A DNA stretch of 64,000 nt from Spirochaetales bacterium. Lineage in GTDB: Bacteria; Spirochaetota; Spirochaetia; Treponematales; Treponemataceae. Positions 13,583-37,598 of the stretch are shown here, piece by piece. The notes beneath the pieces were generated by a model, which made no database searches, was not told the origin of the DNA, and worked only from the letters and a program-made list of their open reading frames with translations. The DNA lies in NCBI GenBank assembly GCA_003252395.1, contig QKEL01000014.1, positions 310,001 to 374,000 of the forward strand, read 5' to 3'. The translations under genes and the position numbers were made by a program. Positions within the stretch are counted from its first letter, which is position 1. Each line of letters begins with the position of its first letter.

Positions 13583-14164
13583 ATGAAACGATCGAATGAA
13601 CTTGTCGACTGGCTTTCCCGGCACATGGAACTTTCGGACGATCTCGCCGAGCTCCTGCTCGGCGGCGTTGCGGTCAAGACGTTCCCGAAGGGCACGATCC
13701 TCCTGCGTCAGGGCGACGTGGCGACCGTGACTTTTTTCGTGCTTCGGGGCTGCGTTCGAAGCTATACGCTCAAGGACGGCGACGATATGACGATCGAGTT
13801 CTATCTTGAGGAAGACCCGATACTCCCGATCGGCTTCGGAAGCGGAGTGCCTTCGGTTCACTTCCTTGAGTGCCTTGAAGACACGGTTGCCGTCGCGAAT
13901 AGCCCCGAACAGGAAGAACGCATGCTAAGAGCCCACCCGGAGCTCAAGGAAGTCTGCCTCGGGATGGCCGAACTCATGGCCGCGAAGCTGCAATCCTCGT
14001 TCGCGGGCTATAAAACGGCGTCGCCGGAAGAACGATACGCCGCATTGCTCGAGCGTCGGCCTGAACTGATCCAACGCGTTCCCCTGTACCATATCGCGAG
14101 TTACCTGGGCGTCAAACCCGAAACCCTGAGCAGGATTCGCGGGAAAATCGGCAAAAAAGCCTAA
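13583..14164 (+). CDS. Crp/Fnr-family transcriptional regulator
   Basis: A 193-residue regulator with a cyclic-nucleotide-binding fold (about 25-115, with FPKGTILLRQGDVATVTFFVL) and a short C-terminal helix-turn-helix (IASYLGVKPETLSRIRGKIG). The sensing pocket lacks the conserved cAMP-binding Arg-Ser pair, and no FNR cysteine cluster is seen, so the ligand is unknown. Small regulators of this shape are often paired with the gene they control; here the next genes encode an outer-membrane-like protein and a four-helix membrane protein. The terminal IGKIGKKA-like tail is basic. Confidence 0.85.
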   Translation: MKRSNELVDWLSRHMELSDDLAELLLGGVAVKTFPKGTILLRQGDVATVTFFVLRGCVRSYTLKDGDDMTIEFYLEEDPILPIGFGSGVPSVHFLECLEDTVAVANSPEQEERMLRAHPELKEVCLGMAELMAAKLQSSFAGYKTASPEERYAALLERRPELIQRVPLYHIASYLGVKPETLSRIRGKIGKKA

Positions 14165-15395: not shown

Positions 15396-16511
15396 ATGAA
15401 AAAAGCAAATGCTTATGCCGTCCTTCTCGTTCTTGCATGCTTCTGCGGCTGCAGCACCGCTAAAACGGCAAGCGAAGACGAAGGGCGCCATTTTCCTGCG
15501 GTACCGATCGTACGTACCGTCGGCAACATCGACGTGATGGTAGACCCGAACGTTGAGATGATGAACGTTCTGTACCGTCTTTCGGGTTTACAGCCGGATT
15601 ATGTGCCCGCGAAGGAAGCCCTTCCCTTTTACGCCGATTATTATGCCAAGGTGGACGATTATTTTGGGCCTTATGCGTACGGCCCCGCGGTTAGCGCGAT
15701 CCGGTTATACGGGATGGCGTACTTTCGCCCGTCAGAATTCGGAATGTACTTAAATTCTGACGATTCCGATTTTATCCTGAAAACGGACAATGAAAAATTC
15801 ATCGTTTCCGAAGGAAACGCACGGGATGTCCCCTACTATCGGTTTTCGACCGTAAGGAAGGCTGTCAGGGATTTTAGGATTACGTCCGATTATGACCGGT
15901 TCTTTCTTTCCAACGGCGCCGCATACGGGGAAATGATCGAGAAGCACGTACGAATCCTGAAAACCAGCGACTTTGGTTCATGGCTAGAGGATTTTTACGG
16001 AATAGAACAAAAGGGGAAATCGCGCCTTTACGTAACGAAATTGACGGGAAATTACGGAATTTCATTCGTTACCCCAAAGGGGAAGCCCGTTCCGTATACG
16101 GTCGTTCTGGATCAACCCTCCGAGGAAGGATCGCTCTTTCTTATTTCCCATGAATTTTCCCATCCAATGACGCGCGAAATCGTTAAGGAATTGTACGATG
16201 ACACGGCGATTCGCGCTTTCTTTGACAGTCTTTACGCTAAAGACGCGTTTTTCTTCAATTCGTTCGGATATACCGATGGCTGTTCCGTTTTAAATGAAAT
16301 AATTAACCAGTCGTGCGCCAATAAATTTCTTGAAACCGTATTTACCGAAGAAACGATGCTCAAGTTATTCTCTTTTTTGGAATCCAGAAAATACGCATAC
16401 GTTCATGACATAACCGACTTCCTCGACAACTACCAAAACGACAGGGAAAAGTATAAAACCCTCAAGGACTTTGTTCCCGAAATGAAGAGGTTTCTCGTTT
16501 CCCTCGAATAG
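15396..16511 (+). CDS. DUF4932-type lipoprotein with HExxH-like motif
   Basis: The 371-residue product has a lipoprotein signal (MKKANAYAVLLVLACFCGCS, lipobox CFCGC). The middle and C-terminal part resembles DUF4932 proteins, with LISHEFSHPMTRE near residue 255. HEFSH reads as a zincin-type site, so a secreted metallopeptidase is possible but unproven. Base composition is clearly more AT-rich than that of neighbouring genes, which suggests later acquisition. The frame is open to an ATG at 15348; I chose 15396 because it starts a proper signal peptide. A TATAGT -10-like box is at 15353. Confidence 0.75.
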   Translation: MKKANAYAVLLVLACFCGCSTAKTASEDEGRHFPAVPIVRTVGNIDVMVDPNVEMMNVLYRLSGLQPDYVPAKEALPFYADYYAKVDDYFGPYAYGPAVSAIRLYGMAYFRPSEFGMYLNSDDSDFILKTDNEKFIVSEGNARDVPYYRFSTVRKAVRDFRITSDYDRFFLSNGAAYGEMIEKHVRILKTSDFGSWLEDFYGIEQKGKSRLYVTKLTGNYGISFVTPKGKPVPYTVVLDQPSEEGSLFLISHEFSHPMTREIVKELYDDTAIRAFFDSLYAKDAFFFNSFGYTDGCSVLNEIINQSCANKFLETVFTEETMLKLFSFLESRKYAYVHDITDFLDNYQNDREKYKTLKDFVPEMKRFLVSLE

Positions 16512-16717
16512 GAAAGCGGAACAAAAGCCTTGCTTCATCCTCTATGATCCGCAATGTACGCGCCGACATACGTCTCGCGGATTAACCGTTCGTACAACGG
16601 ACAATCCGCTCCCGCACGGGCGTTCTGGCCGCCGCTGCGGCCTTTACGCCCTCGCCCGCCCTTTCGCTTTCTGCGTCATTCTTGCCCGCATTAATTGTTT
16701 CCCGAGTAATACATTTA

Positions 16718-16727
16718 TTATCGATAA
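16718..16727. promoter_or_regulatory. TTATCGATAA palindrome upstream of the hydrogenase -35
   Basis: A perfect 10-bp palindrome that ends 7 nt before the -35 hexamer. The related TTATCGATA occurs at 16775-16783, just after the expected transcription start, and TTATCG again at 16789-16794. The layout suits operators that flank a promoter. It does not match the Rex consensus. Confidence 0.5.
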
Positions 16728-16734
16728 AAGATCA

Positions 16735-16763
16735 TTGAATAAAACCGTTATTATTAGTACAAT
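16735..16763 (+). promoter_or_regulatory. Sigma-70 promoter of the hydrogenase operon
   Basis: TTGAAT (16735-16740) and TACAAT (16758-16763) are separated by exactly 17 nt. Transcription should start near 16770, giving a leader of about 47 nt to the nuoE-like ATG at 16817. Confidence 0.7.
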
Positions 16764-16816
16764 AGCGCAAGCATTTATCGATATATTTTTATCGTTTTAG
16801 TTGGGGGTTACAACAA

Positions 16817-17293
16817 ATGACGACGGCCTGCGAGTTCACGACGGAACTCAACACATTCATCGACGAATGGAAGGAAAAGCCCGGAAACCTGATCATGATC
16901 CTGCATAGGGTCCAGGAAGAGCAGGGCTTTATCTCCCGCGAAGCCGCCACCGAGGTGGCGAATCGGACCGGCACGCCGCTGGCCCGCGTATACGGCACCA
17001 TGTCGTTCTATTCTTTCTTTAAAACCGTAAAGCCGGGAAAGAACAAGATCTCCGTGTGTCTCGGCACCGCCTGCTACCTGAAGGGCGGGCAGGACCTGAT
17101 CGACGAGTCCCGGAGCCTTCTGGGCTTAAGCGAGGGCGAGATCACCACTTCTGACGGCCTTTTCTCCGTGGAGCCCGTGCGCTGCATCGGCTGCTGCGGC
17201 TTGGCGCCGGTGTTGTCCGTCAACGGCGACGTGTACGGCAAGCTGACCCGGGACCAGATGGACGGGATTATCGCGAAATACAAGAACGCCTAA
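16817..17293 (+). CDS. hndA: NADH-dependent [FeFe] hydrogenase subunit, NuoE/HndA-like
   Basis: This 158-residue thioredoxin-fold subunit binds one [2Fe-2S] cluster through Cys81, Cys86, Cys123 and Cys127 (VCLGTACY and RCIGCCGLA). It passes electrons within the soluble hydrogenase complex next to the NuoF-like flavoprotein. The length is usual for the family. A GGGGG ribosome site precedes the ATG. It is the first gene of a five-gene operon of NuoE-like, ATPase, ferredoxin-like, NuoF-like and HydA subunits that ends at a strong terminator after 21844. Confidence 0.92.
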   Translation: MTTACEFTTELNTFIDEWKEKPGNLIMILHRVQEEQGFISREAATEVANRTGTPLARVYGTMSFYSFFKTVKPGKNKISVCLGTACYLKGGQDLIDESRSLLGLSEGEITTSDGLFSVEPVRCIGCCGLAPVLSVNGDVYGKLTRDQMDGIIAKYKNA

Positions 17294-17309: not shown

Positions 17310-17891
17310 ATGCATTATACGCTTTGCGATCTGTTCAGCGATTTGACCCAAAACGCGGTCGAGGCGGGCGCGGATTTCGTAAAGGTACGCATGGAAGCGG
17401 GCGCTTCCGCCGTTTCCCTGGCCATTGAAGACAACGGCAAGGGGATGTCGCCGGATGAGCTCGCGCGGGCGACCGATCCGTTCTATACCGACGGGGTAAA
17501 GCACCCCGGGCGCAAGATCGGCCTCGGTATCCCGTTTTTGATCCAGACCGCCGAAAGTACCGGCGGCTTCTGGAAGATCGAATCGGCCAAGGCGGGGGAA
17601 TCGGATAAGCCGGGAACCCGCGTGGAATGCAGGTTCGACCTGACGAATATCGATACGCCGCCGACGGGCGACGTACCGGGGTTTTTCCGGCATGTTTTGA
17701 CCTTTGACGGCCGATACGAGATGGAAATCGCGTACCGGAAAGAGGGGCAAGGCGGAAGCGGGACGGTCGAGTTTACCGTGCTGCGGTCGGAATTGCTCGA
17801 AGCCTTGGGGCTCGCGGAGGAAGGCGGCTTTTACGACGCCAACGCGATAGTGCTCCTGGGCCAGTTTATCGAAAGTTTAATGGAGGAATGA
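17310..17891 (+). CDS. GHKL ATPase-domain protein of the hydrogenase operon
   Basis: This 193-residue protein consists of a GHKL ATP-binding domain: N-box DLTQNAVEAGA (residues 10-20), G1 box EDNGKGMSPDEL and a GLGIPF G2 box. There is no phosphoacceptor histidine or receiver, so it is not a complete sensor kinase. Homologues sit at the same position in NADH-dependent hydrogenase operons of many anaerobes, but their role is not settled; an ATP-dependent assembly or regulatory function is inference. It follows the NuoE-like gene by 16 nt and precedes the ferredoxin-like gene by 1 nt. Confidence 0.85.
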   Translation: MHYTLCDLFSDLTQNAVEAGADFVKVRMEAGASAVSLAIEDNGKGMSPDELARATDPFYTDGVKHPGRKIGLGIPFLIQTAESTGGFWKIESAKAGESDKPGTRVECRFDLTNIDTPPTGDVPGFFRHVLTFDGRYEMEIAYRKEGQGGSGTVEFTVLRSELLEALGLAEEGGFYDANAIVLLGQFIESLMEE

Positions 17892-17892
17892 T

Positions 17893-18288
17893 ATGGCCAA
17901 GATGTCCCTCGAAGACCTGCGAAAGCTTAGGGAAAGCACCCAGGCGCAGATCAAGAAACGCGATACGGAAGGCAAGCAAGCCCAGGTAATCGTCGGAATG
18001 GGTACCTGCGGTATCGCCGCGGGCGCCAAGGATACCCTCTCCGCCTTCGCGAAGGCGCTCGACGAGAAGGGAATGGGCGGCGACGTTTCGATCCGCCAGA
18101 CCGGATGCATGGGCCTGTGCCACAACGAGCCCACCGTCGAGGTCGTGATGGCCGGCATGCCCACCATCATTTACGGCCGGGTTGACGCCGCGGCCGCGAA
18201 GGAAATCGTGGAGAAGCACATTCTCAAGAAAGAGCTGCTCAATGACAGGATTCTCGACCGCCCCGCGGCCGATATCCTGAAGAAGTAA
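17893..18288 (+). CDS. hndB: (2Fe-2S) ferredoxin-like hydrogenase subunit, HndB-like
   Basis: A 131-residue protein with a thioredoxin-like ferredoxin domain after a basic N-terminal helix. Cys39 (GMGTCGIAAGA), Cys72 and Cys76 (TGCMGLC) are present. Only three of the four usual cluster cysteines can be seen, as in other HndB-type proteins, so the cluster may be altered or missing. It lies between the ATPase gene and the NuoF-like gene with a GGAGG ribosome site before the ATG. It is expected to be part of the cytoplasmic hydrogenase complex. Confidence 0.87.
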   Translation: MAKMSLEDLRKLRESTQAQIKKRDTEGKQAQVIVGMGTCGIAAGAKDTLSAFAKALDEKGMGGDVSIRQTGCMGLCHNEPTVEVVMAGMPTIIYGRVDAAAAKEIVEKHILKKELLNDRILDRPAADILKK

Positions 18289-18302: not shown

Positions 18303-20084
18303 ATGGCATACAATCACTACATCCTGGTGTGCGGCGGTACGGGCTGCGAGTCGAGCAACGCCGACGGGATATACAACAACCTGATGACCGAGGCGAAGGC
18401 CGCGGGCGTGATCGACCAGGTCCAGATCGTCAAGACCGGCTGTTTCGGCTTCTGCGAAAAGGGCCCCATCGTAAAAGTCCTCCCCGAGGATTCCTTCTAC
18501 GTGGAAGTGAAGCCCGAAGACGCGAAGGACATTATCGCCGAGCAGATCGTGAAGGGCCGCGAGGTTACCCGCCTCCTTTACAACAAGGAAAAGAAGGATA
18601 TTTCCGACTCCGGCGAGATCCAGTTCTATCAAAAACAGCTCCGCGTGGTCTTGCGCAACTGCGGCGTGATCAATCCCGAGGACCTGAACGAATACATCGC
18701 CCGCGACGGCTACCTGGCCCTCGAGAAGGCGCTTTTCCAGCTCACCCCCCAGCAGATCGTGGACGAGGTGAAGGCATCCGGCCTCCGCGGACGCGGCGGC
18801 GCCGGCTTCCCCACGGGACTTAAGTGGGAAGCGGGACTCAAGGCCCAGGGCGACCAGAAGTTCGTGGTCTGCAACGCCGACGAGGGCGACCCGGGCGCCT
18901 ACATGGACCGCTCCACCATCGAGGGCGACCCCCACTCGGTGATCGAGTCCATGGCCATCTGCGGAAAGGCAATCGGCGCGAACCAGGGCTTCGTGTATAT
19001 CCGCGCGGAGTATCCCCTCGCCGTGGACCGCCTCAAGATCGCCCTGAACCAGGCCCGCGAGGCCGGGCTCCTGGGCAAGAACATACTCGGCTCGGGCTTC
19101 GATTTCGATATCGAGATCCGCCTCGGCGCGGGCGCCTTCGTCTGCGGCGAGGAAACCGCCCTCCTCCGCTCCATCGAGGGAAAGCGCGGCATGCCCACCC
19201 CGAAGCCCCCGTTCCCGGCCCAGTCCGGACTCTGGGGCAAGCCCACCATCATCAACAACGTGGAAACCTGGGCGAATATCCCCGTGATCCTCAACAAGGG
19301 AGCGGCTTGGTTCGCCAAGATCGGCACCGAGGATTCCAAGGGCACCAAGGTTTTCGCCCTCACCGGTAAGGTGAAGAATTCCGGCCTCGTCGAGGTTCCC
19401 ATGGGAACTACCCTCCGCGAGATCATCTTCGACATCGGCGGCGGCATCAAGGGCGGCAAGAAGTTCAAGGGCGTGCAGACCGGCGGCCCTTCCGGCGGAA
19501 TCATCACCGAGGAAGCCCTGGACACCCCGATCGACTTCAAGGGGCTCCAGATGCTCGGCTCCATGATGGGCTCCGGCGGCATGATCGTCATGGACGAGGA
19601 CGACTGCGTGATCGACGTGTCCAAGTTCTACATGGAGTTCTGCGTGGAGGAATCCTGCGGCAAGTGCTCGCCCTGCCGCATCGGAACCCGGCAGATCCAC
19701 GCCATCCTCGAGAAGATTTCCCGCGGCTCAGGCACCATGGAAGACCTGAACAAGATGAAGGAAATCGGCTTCGCCATGCAGAAGAGCTCGCTCTGCGCGC
19801 TCGGACAGTCGGCCCCGAACCCGACCCTTTCGACCATCCGCAAGTTCGAGGCCGAGTATATCGCCCATATCCAGGACAAGAAGTGCGCCTCCGGCAAGTG
19901 CAAGCACCTGGTGACCTTCTCGATCAACGACAAGTGCATCGGCTGCGGCGCCTGCGCCAGGAAGTGCCCGGCGGACTGCATCACCGGCGAGAAGAAGTCG
20001 AAACACGTCATTGACCAGTCCAAGTGTCTCAAGTGCGGCGAGTGCTTCAACACCTGTAAGTTCCACGCCATCGACAAGATGTAA
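18303..20084 (+). CDS. hndC: NuoF-like flavoprotein subunit of the hydrogenase (HydB/HndC)
   Basis: This 593-residue protein oxidises or reduces NAD(H) and links it to the iron-sulfur chain. Domain order: N-terminal thioredoxin-like [2Fe-2S] domain (Cys10, Cys15, Cys47, Cys51), FMN/NADH-binding core (GLRGRGGAGFPTGLKWE near 160), SLBB region, NuoF C-terminal [4Fe-4S] site (EESCGKCSPCRIG), and two ferredoxin clusters (CIGCGACARKCP and CLKCGECFNTCK) at the end. Length and order match HydB of electron-bifurcating hydrogenases. A GGAGAGG site precedes the start, and hydA follows after 17 nt. Confidence 0.94.
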   Translation: MAYNHYILVCGGTGCESSNADGIYNNLMTEAKAAGVIDQVQIVKTGCFGFCEKGPIVKVLPEDSFYVEVKPEDAKDIIAEQIVKGREVTRLLYNKEKKDISDSGEIQFYQKQLRVVLRNCGVINPEDLNEYIARDGYLALEKALFQLTPQQIVDEVKASGLRGRGGAGFPTGLKWEAGLKAQGDQKFVVCNADEGDPGAYMDRSTIEGDPHSVIESMAICGKAIGANQGFVYIRAEYPLAVDRLKIALNQAREAGLLGKNILGSGFDFDIEIRLGAGAFVCGEETALLRSIEGKRGMPTPKPPFPAQSGLWGKPTIINNVETWANIPVILNKGAAWFAKIGTEDSKGTKVFALTGKVKNSGLVEVPMGTTLREIIFDIGGGIKGGKKFKGVQTGGPSGGIITEEALDTPIDFKGLQMLGSMMGSGGMIVMDEDDCVIDVSKFYMEFCVEESCGKCSPCRIGTRQIHAILEKISRGSGTMEDLNKMKEIGFAMQKSSLCALGQSAPNPTLSTIRKFEAEYIAHIQDKKCASGKCKHLVTFSINDKCIGCGACARKCPADCITGEKKSKHVIDQSKCLKCGECFNTCKFHAIDKM

Positions 20085-20101: not shown

Positions 20102-21844
20102 ATGATCAACGTTAAAATAAACGGAAAACCGGTCCAGGTGGCCGAAGGAACCACGATCCTCGCGGCCGCGAAGCTCGCGAACGTGAAGATCCCCTCGCTC
20201 TGCTTTAACGCGGACCTTCCCGCGTGGGCTTCCTGCGGCATCTGCATCGTGCGCATGGAAGGCACTCCCCGCATGATCCGCGCCTGCTGCACCGCCTGCA
20301 CCGAGGGCATGAGCGTCATCACGCACGATCCCGAGATCGTCAAGGCGCGCCGCACCGTGCTCGAGCTGATCCTGTCGAACCATCCCCAGGAATGCCTCAC
20401 CTGCACCCGCAACAACCAGTGCGAGCTGCAGTCGCTCGCGGCAGAGTTCGGCCTGCGCCAGATCCGCTTCGACCACTTCATCGTGGACCGGCCCCTGGAC
20501 CGCACCAACTCCGCGATCGTGTTCGACCGCAACAAGTGCATCAACTGCGGCCGCTGCGTGCAGGTGTGCCAGGAAGTGCAGAAGGTTAACGCCATCGAGT
20601 ACCAGGCCCGCGGCGGAAAGACCGTGATCGGCCCCGCCGCCATGGCGAACCTTGAGGATTCCCCCTGCGTGCGCTGCGGCCAGTGCGCGGCGCATTGCCC
20701 GGTCGGCGCTATTTACGAGGACCACGCGACCCGCAAGGTGTGGGACGCCCTCGACGCGAAAGACACCGTGACCGTCGCCCAGATCGCCCCCGCCGTGCGC
20801 GTGGCCCTCGGCGAGGAATTCGGCATGGCGCCCGGAGCGATCTCCACCAAGAAAATCTACACCGCGCTCCGCCAGATCGGCTTCGACTACGTGTTCGACA
20901 CCAACTTCTCCGCCGACCTTACCATCATGGAAGAGGGTACCGAGCTGATCGGCCGCCTGTCCTCGGGCAAGGCCCCGATCCCGCTGTTTACCTCCTGCTG
21001 CCCGGCCTGGGTCGACTACGCGGAAAAGAACTACCACGACCTCCTTCCCAACGTGTCAAGCGCCAAGAGCCCCCAGCAGATGATGGGCGCCATGATCAAG
21101 ACCTACTGGGCCCAGAAGGCCAATATCGACCCCGCGAAGGTTTTCTCCGTGTCCATCATGCCCTGTACCGCCAAGAAGTACGAGTGCAAGCGCAACGACG
21201 ACATGAAGAGCTCCGGCTTCCAGGACGTCGACTCCGTGCTCACCACCCGCGAGCTCGCGCGCCTGATCAAGCAGGCCGGAATCGACTTCAATAACTGCGA
21301 GGAATCCGAGGCCGACAATCCCTTAGGTCCCTACACCGGCGCGGGCACCATTTTCGGCGCCACCGGCGGCGTTATGGAAGCGGCGCTCCGCACCGCCTAC
21401 GCGGTGCTCACCGGCCAGGAGCTGGCGGACATCAACTACGTGCCCGCCCGCGGCCTTAAGGACGTGAAGGAAGCCGCCGTAGACGTGAACGGCAAGGAAA
21501 TCCGGATCGCCGTCGTGCACCAGCTCGGCAACGTGGATCCCGTGGTCCAGAGCATCCGCTCCGCGATCGCCGAGGGCAAAGAGCCCCCGTACCACTTCGT
21601 CGAGGTCATGGCCTGCCGCGGCGGCTGTATCGCCGGCGGCGGTCAGCCCTACGGCGCCACCGACGAGGTTCGCGAGAAGCGCATCGCCGGCCTCTATACC
21701 GACGACGCGAAGAGCGAGATCAGGGTATCGCACAAGAACCCCTACGTGCAGCAGGCGTACACCGAGTTCCTTACCAAGCCGAACTCCGAGAAGGCCCACC
21801 ACCTCCTCCACACCCACTACGTGAAGCGCGAACTGTACAAGTAA
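20102..21844 (+). CDS. hydA: [FeFe] hydrogenase catalytic subunit
   Basis: The 580-residue catalytic subunit carries the active-site H-cluster. It has a [2Fe-2S] domain (Cys34, Cys45, Cys48, Cys62/63), a His-ligated [4Fe-4S] motif (His94, Cys98, Cys101, Cys107), two ferredoxin clusters (CINCGRCVQVC, CVRCGQCAAHCP), and the three H-cluster motifs TSCCPAW (297-303), MPCTAKKYE (353-361) and MACRGGCIAGGGQP (503-516). The small-subunit domain is fused at the C-terminus. With the NuoE- and NuoF-like subunits it forms an NADH-linked, possibly bifurcating enzyme that makes H2 during fermentation. Maturases HydE, HydF and HydG are not in the window. Confidence 0.96.
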   Translation: MINVKINGKPVQVAEGTTILAAAKLANVKIPSLCFNADLPAWASCGICIVRMEGTPRMIRACCTACTEGMSVITHDPEIVKARRTVLELILSNHPQECLTCTRNNQCELQSLAAEFGLRQIRFDHFIVDRPLDRTNSAIVFDRNKCINCGRCVQVCQEVQKVNAIEYQARGGKTVIGPAAMANLEDSPCVRCGQCAAHCPVGAIYEDHATRKVWDALDAKDTVTVAQIAPAVRVALGEEFGMAPGAISTKKIYTALRQIGFDYVFDTNFSADLTIMEEGTELIGRLSSGKAPIPLFTSCCPAWVDYAEKNYHDLLPNVSSAKSPQQMMGAMIKTYWAQKANIDPAKVFSVSIMPCTAKKYECKRNDDMKSSGFQDVDSVLTTRELARLIKQAGIDFNNCEESEADNPLGPYTGAGTIFGATGGVMEAALRTAYAVLTGQELADINYVPARGLKDVKEAAVDVNGKEIRIAVVHQLGNVDPVVQSIRSAIAEGKEPPYHFVEVMACRGGCIAGGGQPYGATDEVREKRIAGLYTDDAKSEIRVSHKNPYVQQAYTEFLTKPNSEKAHHLLHTHYVKRELYK

Positions 21845-37217: not shown

Positions 37218-37598
37218 ATGACCAAGATTCTCGTAGTCGAAGATGACGAATCGGTATCCGAACTGGTAAAAAGCGTGCTGGAACTCGAGGGCTATTCCGT
37301 TTCCACCGCCCCGAATGCCGAGACGGCAAAAAAGCTCATTCAAGAAAACGCTCCCGACCTCGCGCTTATCGATATTATACTGCCCGGACAGGGCGGAATG
37401 GATCTCATTCTCGAGCTTCACGCCTACTGCCCCGACCTGGCCATCGTGCTTACCTCGGGCAAGATCGACATGACCAAGGCGACCTTCAAGGTTCTGGCCC
37501 ATCAATTCGGCGTCGTTTCCATCCTTCCGAAACCCTTCACCGTCGAGGAATTAATCACTACCGTTACCGAATCGCTCGCCGGCTCAGTTCACGCATAA
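37218..37598 (+). CDS. Single-domain response regulator (CheY-like receiver)
   Basis: A 126-residue stand-alone receiver. The acidic pocket is VVEDDES (Asp9, Asp10), the phosphoacceptor is in ALIDIILPGQ (about Asp53), and the conserved Thr/Ser and Lys are in LTSGK and LPKPF. There is no output domain, so it acts by protein contact or in a phosphorelay. No kinase gene is adjacent. The ATG follows a TTGGAGA site at a somewhat long 11-nt spacing. The last 35 nt overlap the convergent RNA methyltransferase gene. Confidence 0.9.
   Translation: MTKILVVEDDESVSELVKSVLELEGYSVSTAPNAETAKKLIQENAPDLALIDIILPGQGGMDLILELHAYCPDLAIVLTSGKIDMTKATFKVLAHQFGVVSILPKPFTVEELITTVTESLAGSVHA

Follow-up and report, generated by a model that had tools for sequence, protein, structure and literature searches.

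The Rex operator (ROP) described in S. agalactiae has the consensus TTGTGAAN4TTCACAA (PMC8376106). Hydrogenase genes are included in the Rex regulons of T. maritima and Caldicellulosiruptor (PMC8836258, PMC6391272); the regulon of C. bescii takes in rex itself, and a class V aminotransferase/phosphoglycerate dehydrogenase unit of the same organism has a predicted Rex site in front (PMC6391272). Within a 22-mer bound by T. maritima Rex, G5 is read by Arg48 and G7/A8 by Lys49, and the wing residues Arg60 and Gly61 touch T4 and T3 in the minor groove (PMC8836258). Among the titles and abstract openings of the open-licence literature, no publication on Rex in Treponema or Spirochaetes was found.

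The window analyzed here is a stretch of 64,000 nucleotides from a Spirochaetales bacterium, and features a row of hydrogenase genes on the + strand. The first gene of the presumed operon is hydC-like (16817-17293), and encodes a thioredoxin-like [2Fe-2S] subunit (PF01257). It is followed by genes for a HATPase_c protein (17310-17891; PF02518), a [2Fe-2S] thioredoxin-like protein (17893-18288; PF01257, just under the cut-off), a hydB-like NADH-binding (Nuo51) subunit (18303-20084; PF01512, PF10589), and the [FeFe]-hydrogenase catalytic subunit HydA (20102-21844; PF02906, PF02256). The HATPase_c protein is histidine-kinase-like, and its gene separates hydC from the [2Fe-2S] gene that comes next in the row.

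Three TTATCG sites, reported in a preliminary description to bracket the hydrogenase promoter, are all in place: TTATCGATAA at 16718-16727, TTATCGATA at 16775-16783, and TTATCG at 16789-16794. Their reported distances hold as well, because the region 16500-16850 yielded a single promoter-like pair, TTGAAT (-35 element, 16735-16740, + strand) and TACAAT (-10 element, 16758-16763, + strand), separated by 17 nt. TTATCGATAA ends 7 nt before the -35 element, TTATCGATA begins about 5 nt past the expected start of transcription, and the third TTATCG follows 14 nt further on. What relatives conserve, however, is not a set of three sites around a promoter, but an 18-bp inverted repeat. The main operator, O2 (TCGATATATTTTTATCGT, 16778-16795, no strand), is an imperfect inverted repeat of the TCGATAA-N4-TTATCGA form, located about 8-25 nt past the expected start; the second and third TTATCG make up its arms. 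A weaker upstream operator, O1 (TCGATAAAAGATCATTGA, 16721-16738, no strand), holds the first TTATCG, and ends in the TTGA with which the -35 element begins. The three TTATCG were also considered as direct repeats, an arrangement ruled out because both arms of the inverted repeat are kept in relatives, whereas the first TTATCG varies (TTATAG in L032 and L033).

Matches to hydC were identified in all 12 genomes of the genus, and the promoter is readable in 11 of them (rows L022-L033, leaving out L029, in which the promoter is cut off). Footprinting of hyd promoters had been proposed as a check in the preliminary description, and in all 11 readable promoters the 18-bp inverted repeat is conserved. 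Four blocks stand out in the alignment: the -35 element, of which ATTG is invariant in 11/11, the -10 element, the 18-bp repeat after the expected start, and TTGGGGGTT (16801-16809, + strand). The repeat reads TCGATAAAN2TTTATCGA or near, and deviates from TCGATAAN4TTATCGA by no mismatch in 3 promoters, one in 4 and two in 4; its arms are among the invariant columns, and adjacent bases vary. O1 was found within 2 mismatches in G000 (the window genome), G002, G003 and G006, always at 57 bp from O2, and is absent at this threshold from the remaining 7 of the 11 promoters; three of the four carriers are close relatives. TTGGGGGTT, near-invariant in 11/11, is a putative Shine-Dalgarno-like leader before the hydC start codon. 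It is more constant than a Shine-Dalgarno sequence with a G-U wobble in the middle needs to be, though that role would explain its conservation.

Outside the genus, the 18-mer precedes hyd, with 1 mismatch, in both sampled g5 genomes, and looser versions of it reside in some g4, g8, g10 and g19 genomes. Hyd promoters were also collected from relatives with named contigs (80 listed out of 157, overlapping in part with the genus and family genomes used for footprinting). Two of the 80 (L204 and L254) are too short; among the other 78 promoters the repeat was found 13 times within 2 mismatches and 24 times within 3, as against 0 and 1 for a reversed-pattern control. A site with 3 mismatches is present in the cultured relative Breznakiella homolactica (L263). 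The canonical Rex patterns TTGTGAA and TTGTTAA, allowing 2 mismatches, were found in none of the 78. For 8 named records corresponding, by identity, to genus members, 200 shuffles each were run, of which no more than 0.5% did as well as the real sequence. G000, G002 and G003 possess a second hydC-like gene, about 52% identical, with a different upstream region; no such operator was recognized by eye before the second hyd operon of the window genome (G000:C8:46915, L036) and its relatives L034 and L035.

The shorter words are less informative. TTATCGATA matches the window 4 times vs 0.25 expected from shuffles, but two of the four are one palindrome counted on both strands, and the match at 37366 is inside an ORF. 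TTATCGATAA occurs 17 times genome-wide vs once for the reversed word; 14 of the copies lie in ORFs of at least 239 aa; of the other three, two are clear of any ORF and one meets the end of an ORF of 153 aa. The share outside long ORFs (3/17) is close to that expected by chance, ORFs of 230 aa or more leaving 14% of the window uncovered; the short word is therefore not promoter-specific. TTATCGATAA was accordingly set aside as a regulatory word, having failed the frequency comparison which the preliminary description itself had proposed.

In the window genome the 18-mer matches 9 places within 2 mismatches vs 4 for the control, among the matches listed. Five of the nine sites precede genes: hyd (two sites), adhE (Aldedh and Fe-ADH domains), rnfC (RnfC_N), and a gene with FAD_binding_2 and FMN_bind domains which resembles fumarate reductases. 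The other four are located inside ORFs of 184-868 aa. The adhE, rnfC and FAD-gene sites also overlap mechanical ORFs (176, 262 and 153 aa, respectively), which are taken as spurious; those of 176 and 262 aa overlap adhE and rnfC, respectively, on the opposite strand. Summed over the 12 genus genomes, matches within 2 mismatches number 121 vs 56 for the control, again among the matches listed. In G002 and G009 the site is found also before an [FeFe]-hydrogenase gene of another type. Of 11 genus members only 2 have the rnfC site (2 mismatches allowed), and rnfC was dropped as a conserved target on this ground.

A scan of 60 genomes of the family at 1 mismatch or less identified 40 sites vs 25 in the control. 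In five genera (g1, g4, g5, g8 and g10; 20 genomes), grouped post hoc once the result had been seen, the figures are 21 vs 1; the other 40 genomes, the RexA-bearing g15 and g20 included, exhibit no excess (19 vs 24). Twelve of the 21 sites precede hyd (7), adhE (2), an Fe-ADH gene (1), a frd-like gene (1), or a unit in which an [FeFe]-hydrogenase ORF is joined by an ORF of 82 aa (1). One more such site, the thirteenth, lies before a frd-like gene in G060 (genus g9). In G020 the Fe-ADH site overlaps the ORF when the latter is given its longer, mechanical reading; as judged by eye, a start codon with a ribosome site comes after the site. Matches unaccompanied by a fermentation-type gene include a phage portal gene (G008), a site at the side of divIC (G014), and a cluster in G077. 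Thirty-one of the 40 sites of the family scan were inspected singly (all but two in G020, G006:C83, the second in G069, the second in G085, two in G060, two in G077). The G077 cluster (L357, G077:C8:17734-17793) consists of three near-perfect TCGATAN6TATCGA sites in 60 bp, and no ORF of at least 100 aa begins within 350 bp of the first.

The 18-mer sits at fermentation, hydrogenase and rex genes, where a Rex operator would be expected, and its targets form a list which we take to be of Rex type. Gene lists of like kind have been given for Rex of C. bescii and S. agalactiae (PMC6391272, PMC8376106). By eye, the site falls between the -35 and -10 elements of adhE and of the hydrogenase genes in G002 and G033, which argues against an RNA element. 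A hairpin in the leader RNA is unlikely also because the centre of the repeat is too tight for a hairpin of full length, and because the adhE site is upstream of the expected start.

A Rex domain was detected above the Pfam cut-off in all 12 genus genomes, and the window genome encodes two paralogs, RexA and RexB. RexA was found in 11 genus genomes, and as a contig-end fragment in G003. It matches PF06971 above the cut-off, aligns over residues 8-196 of 214 to the solved Rex 2vt2 (116 bits), carries the motif GAGNLG, and is thus predicted to have the Rex N-terminal DNA-binding and NAD-binding domains. Rex sequences of the family fall into two clades, RexA (44 sequences) and RexB (40). Both coexist in at least 28 of 56 genomes, a minimum because second Rex loci were fetched only in part. 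Two Rex-like proteins of a third type, L064 (G006:C23) and L139 (G088:C49), belong to neither clade and were kept out of the counts.

The rexA promoter features a related 18-bp element, TCGTTAAAAA-N5-CGA (TCGTTAAAAAN5CGA), in 11/11 genus members. The element is partly palindromic, its right half being poor (CGA only). Elements resembling TCGATAAAN2TTTATAGT were found in 3 of 4 g8 rexA promoters, TCGGTAAAAAAATACCG in both g5 promoters, and TCGTTAAAACGTTAAAGA in g14. A recognizable self-site is therefore present in 17 of 44 family promoters (11 in g1, 3 in g8, 2 in g5, 1 in g14), and a convincing one was not found in the remaining 27; g15 and g20 yielded no clear motif. In the rexB promoter the word is instead TTGTGAAN4TTCACAA, present at 2 mismatches or less in 32 of 40 cases (30 of 31 outside g3). 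In the window genome, rexB has a canonical TGTGAAN4TTCACA box, one of two canonical boxes detected there at 2 mismatches or less, the other being at C9:74337. Behind the box rexB is followed by a gene named serC-like by eye (L325 2477-4323, G000:C6). With the site predicted in C. bescii in mind, the link of Rex to serine genes may be a recurring one.

Converted by us to the numbering of the 18-mer, the T. maritima contacts G5, G7/A8, and T4 and T3 correspond to positions 3, 5 and 6, and 2 and 1, respectively. Arg48 and Lys49 are kept in 44/44 RexA sequences, and G3 and A6 are invariant in the left half of the operator in 11/11 genus promoters. Position 2 of the operator is C, and in the wing of RexA residue 60 is Pro in 44/44, residue 61 Lys in 42 and Arg in 2. 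Twelve residues of T. maritima Rex contact DNA: R12, Q46, R48, K49, G58 and Y64 are kept in 44/44 RexA proteins, the other six (S33, E34, K43, S52, R60, G61) are changed in 43 or 44 of 44. The wing of RexB is equally altered, yet its box is canonical; therefore the wing alone does not explain the operator change, and the match between the altered RexA wing and C2 is a correlation, not an explanation.

Taken together, the 7-4-7 geometry, the target genes, the site at rexA, and the pairing of Arg48/Lys49 with G3/A6 speak for a Rex-family regulator whose half-site is altered. On these comparisons the conserved operator is real, and the system appears to be of Rex type with a lineage-specific word. 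We consider it likely that O2, along with the weaker O1, is an operator for RexA, which is encoded elsewhere in the window genome and would sense NADH and repress hyd when NADH is low. By analogy with the Rex family, which suggests binding by RexA, release by NADH and the direction of regulation alike, a RexA dimer would sit at low NADH on TCGATAW-N4-TTATCGA just past the start, and block the hyd operon; in a few species RexA may also occupy O1, over the -35 element. As NADH rises RexA would be released, the NADH-linked [FeFe]-hydrogenase would be made, and reducing power would leave the cell as H2. Besides hyd, this word marks adhE and, depending on the species, also rnfC, fumarate-reductase-like, [FeFe]-hydrogenase and Fe-ADH genes. 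In Treponema-like spirochaetes the half-site may have drifted from TTGT(G/T)AA to TCG(A/T)TAA, RexB still residing behind a canonical box. The chances are about even that one cell uses two insulated words, RexA having switched to TCG(A/T)TAA through coordinated changes of the contacts to position 2 and running the redox regulon, RexB keeping TGTGAA and being confined to the rexB-serC promoter.

Another dimeric repressor, of the TetR, GntR or Crp/Fnr type for example, could read TCGATAA-N4-TTATCGA at the same fermentation genes. The half-site does differ from that of textbook Rex, and a Crp/Fnr-like gene (13583-14164) lies upstream of hyd; but the geometry, the target list and the rexA site all fit Rex, and make this reading unlikely. 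No match to the Crp/Fnr-like neighbour was obtained in the 17 hyd loci examined in relatives, a partial test, since these extend at most 3 kb upstream, and some far less. An FNR box is TTGATN4ATCAA, 14 bp, and a Crp-type box the 16-bp TGTGAN6TCACA. Like the FNR box, the 18-mer is a short AT-rich palindrome at anaerobic genes, but it measures 18 bp and has TCGA ends, as against 14 bp with 5-4-5 halves. The 18-bp unit with its TCGATAA halves does not fit an FNR/Crp operator. The preliminary description had called the motif neither a Rex nor an FNR site; as regards Rex it was probably wrong, given the geometry, the targets, the rexA site and the contacts.

That RexB, or both paralogs, act on the hyd operators in place of RexA alone is still less probable. 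In G018 a box with 1 mismatch precedes adhE, and the only Rex found is of RexB type (185 vs 69 bits), RexA possibly missing because of an assembly gap. The rexB promoters, however, carry the different word given above. Genera g2 and g3, where of the two paralogs RexB alone was found, lack the 18-mer before hyd (0/5 within 2 mismatches), and g3 lacks it before adhE as well (0/6 within 3 mismatches).

Roadblock or looping control had been suggested earlier from the bracketing of the promoter. The first part is supported, as a repressor-type site is seen in a roadblock or occlusion position. Looping between O1 and O2 is unsupported and has very little probability: four of the 11 relatives do carry the two sites 57 bp apart, but seven lack O1 within 2 mismatches, and 57 bp (about 5.4 turns) is very short and out of phase, simple occlusion being sufficient. 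Chance matching in an AT-rich 5' leader, which the 29% GC of the hyd promoter region in a window of 61% GC and the equal frequency of TTATCGATAA in coding and other DNA might suggest, is the least probable reading, largely refuted by arms conserved in 11/11 promoters amid varying neighbours and by the shuffling trials.

If the RexA reading is true, the hydrogenase and ethanol genes of these spirochaetes, and in some species the Rnf and fumarate-reductase-like genes, are placed under one redox sensor. Searches restricted to the textbook box can miss Rex regulons of this kind. How a Rex paralog acquires another DNA word could be examined cleanly with the RexA/RexB pair, and the two-word reading, if true, would show a duplicated redox sensor that has split, in nature, by operator specificity.

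Compared to the ROP, O2 is likewise an 18-bp palindrome of 7-4-7 architecture with G3, A6 and A7, and the 18-mer likewise overlaps promoter elements and is found at hydrogenase, adhE, frd/rnf-type and rex genes. In contrast, the half-site is TCG(A/T)TAA rather than TTGT(G/T)AA, with C at position 2 and T at position 5; the textbook TTGTGAA/TTGTTAA half-site is not present, and we therefore class the 18-mer as a variant rather than a textbook ROP. As in T. maritima and Caldicellulosiruptor, hydrogenase genes are predicted to be under Rex and, as in C. bescii, rex would regulate itself; unlike the TTGTGAA-type boxes of T. maritima and Caldicellulosiruptor, the word is changed here, and a second paralog keeps the old one.
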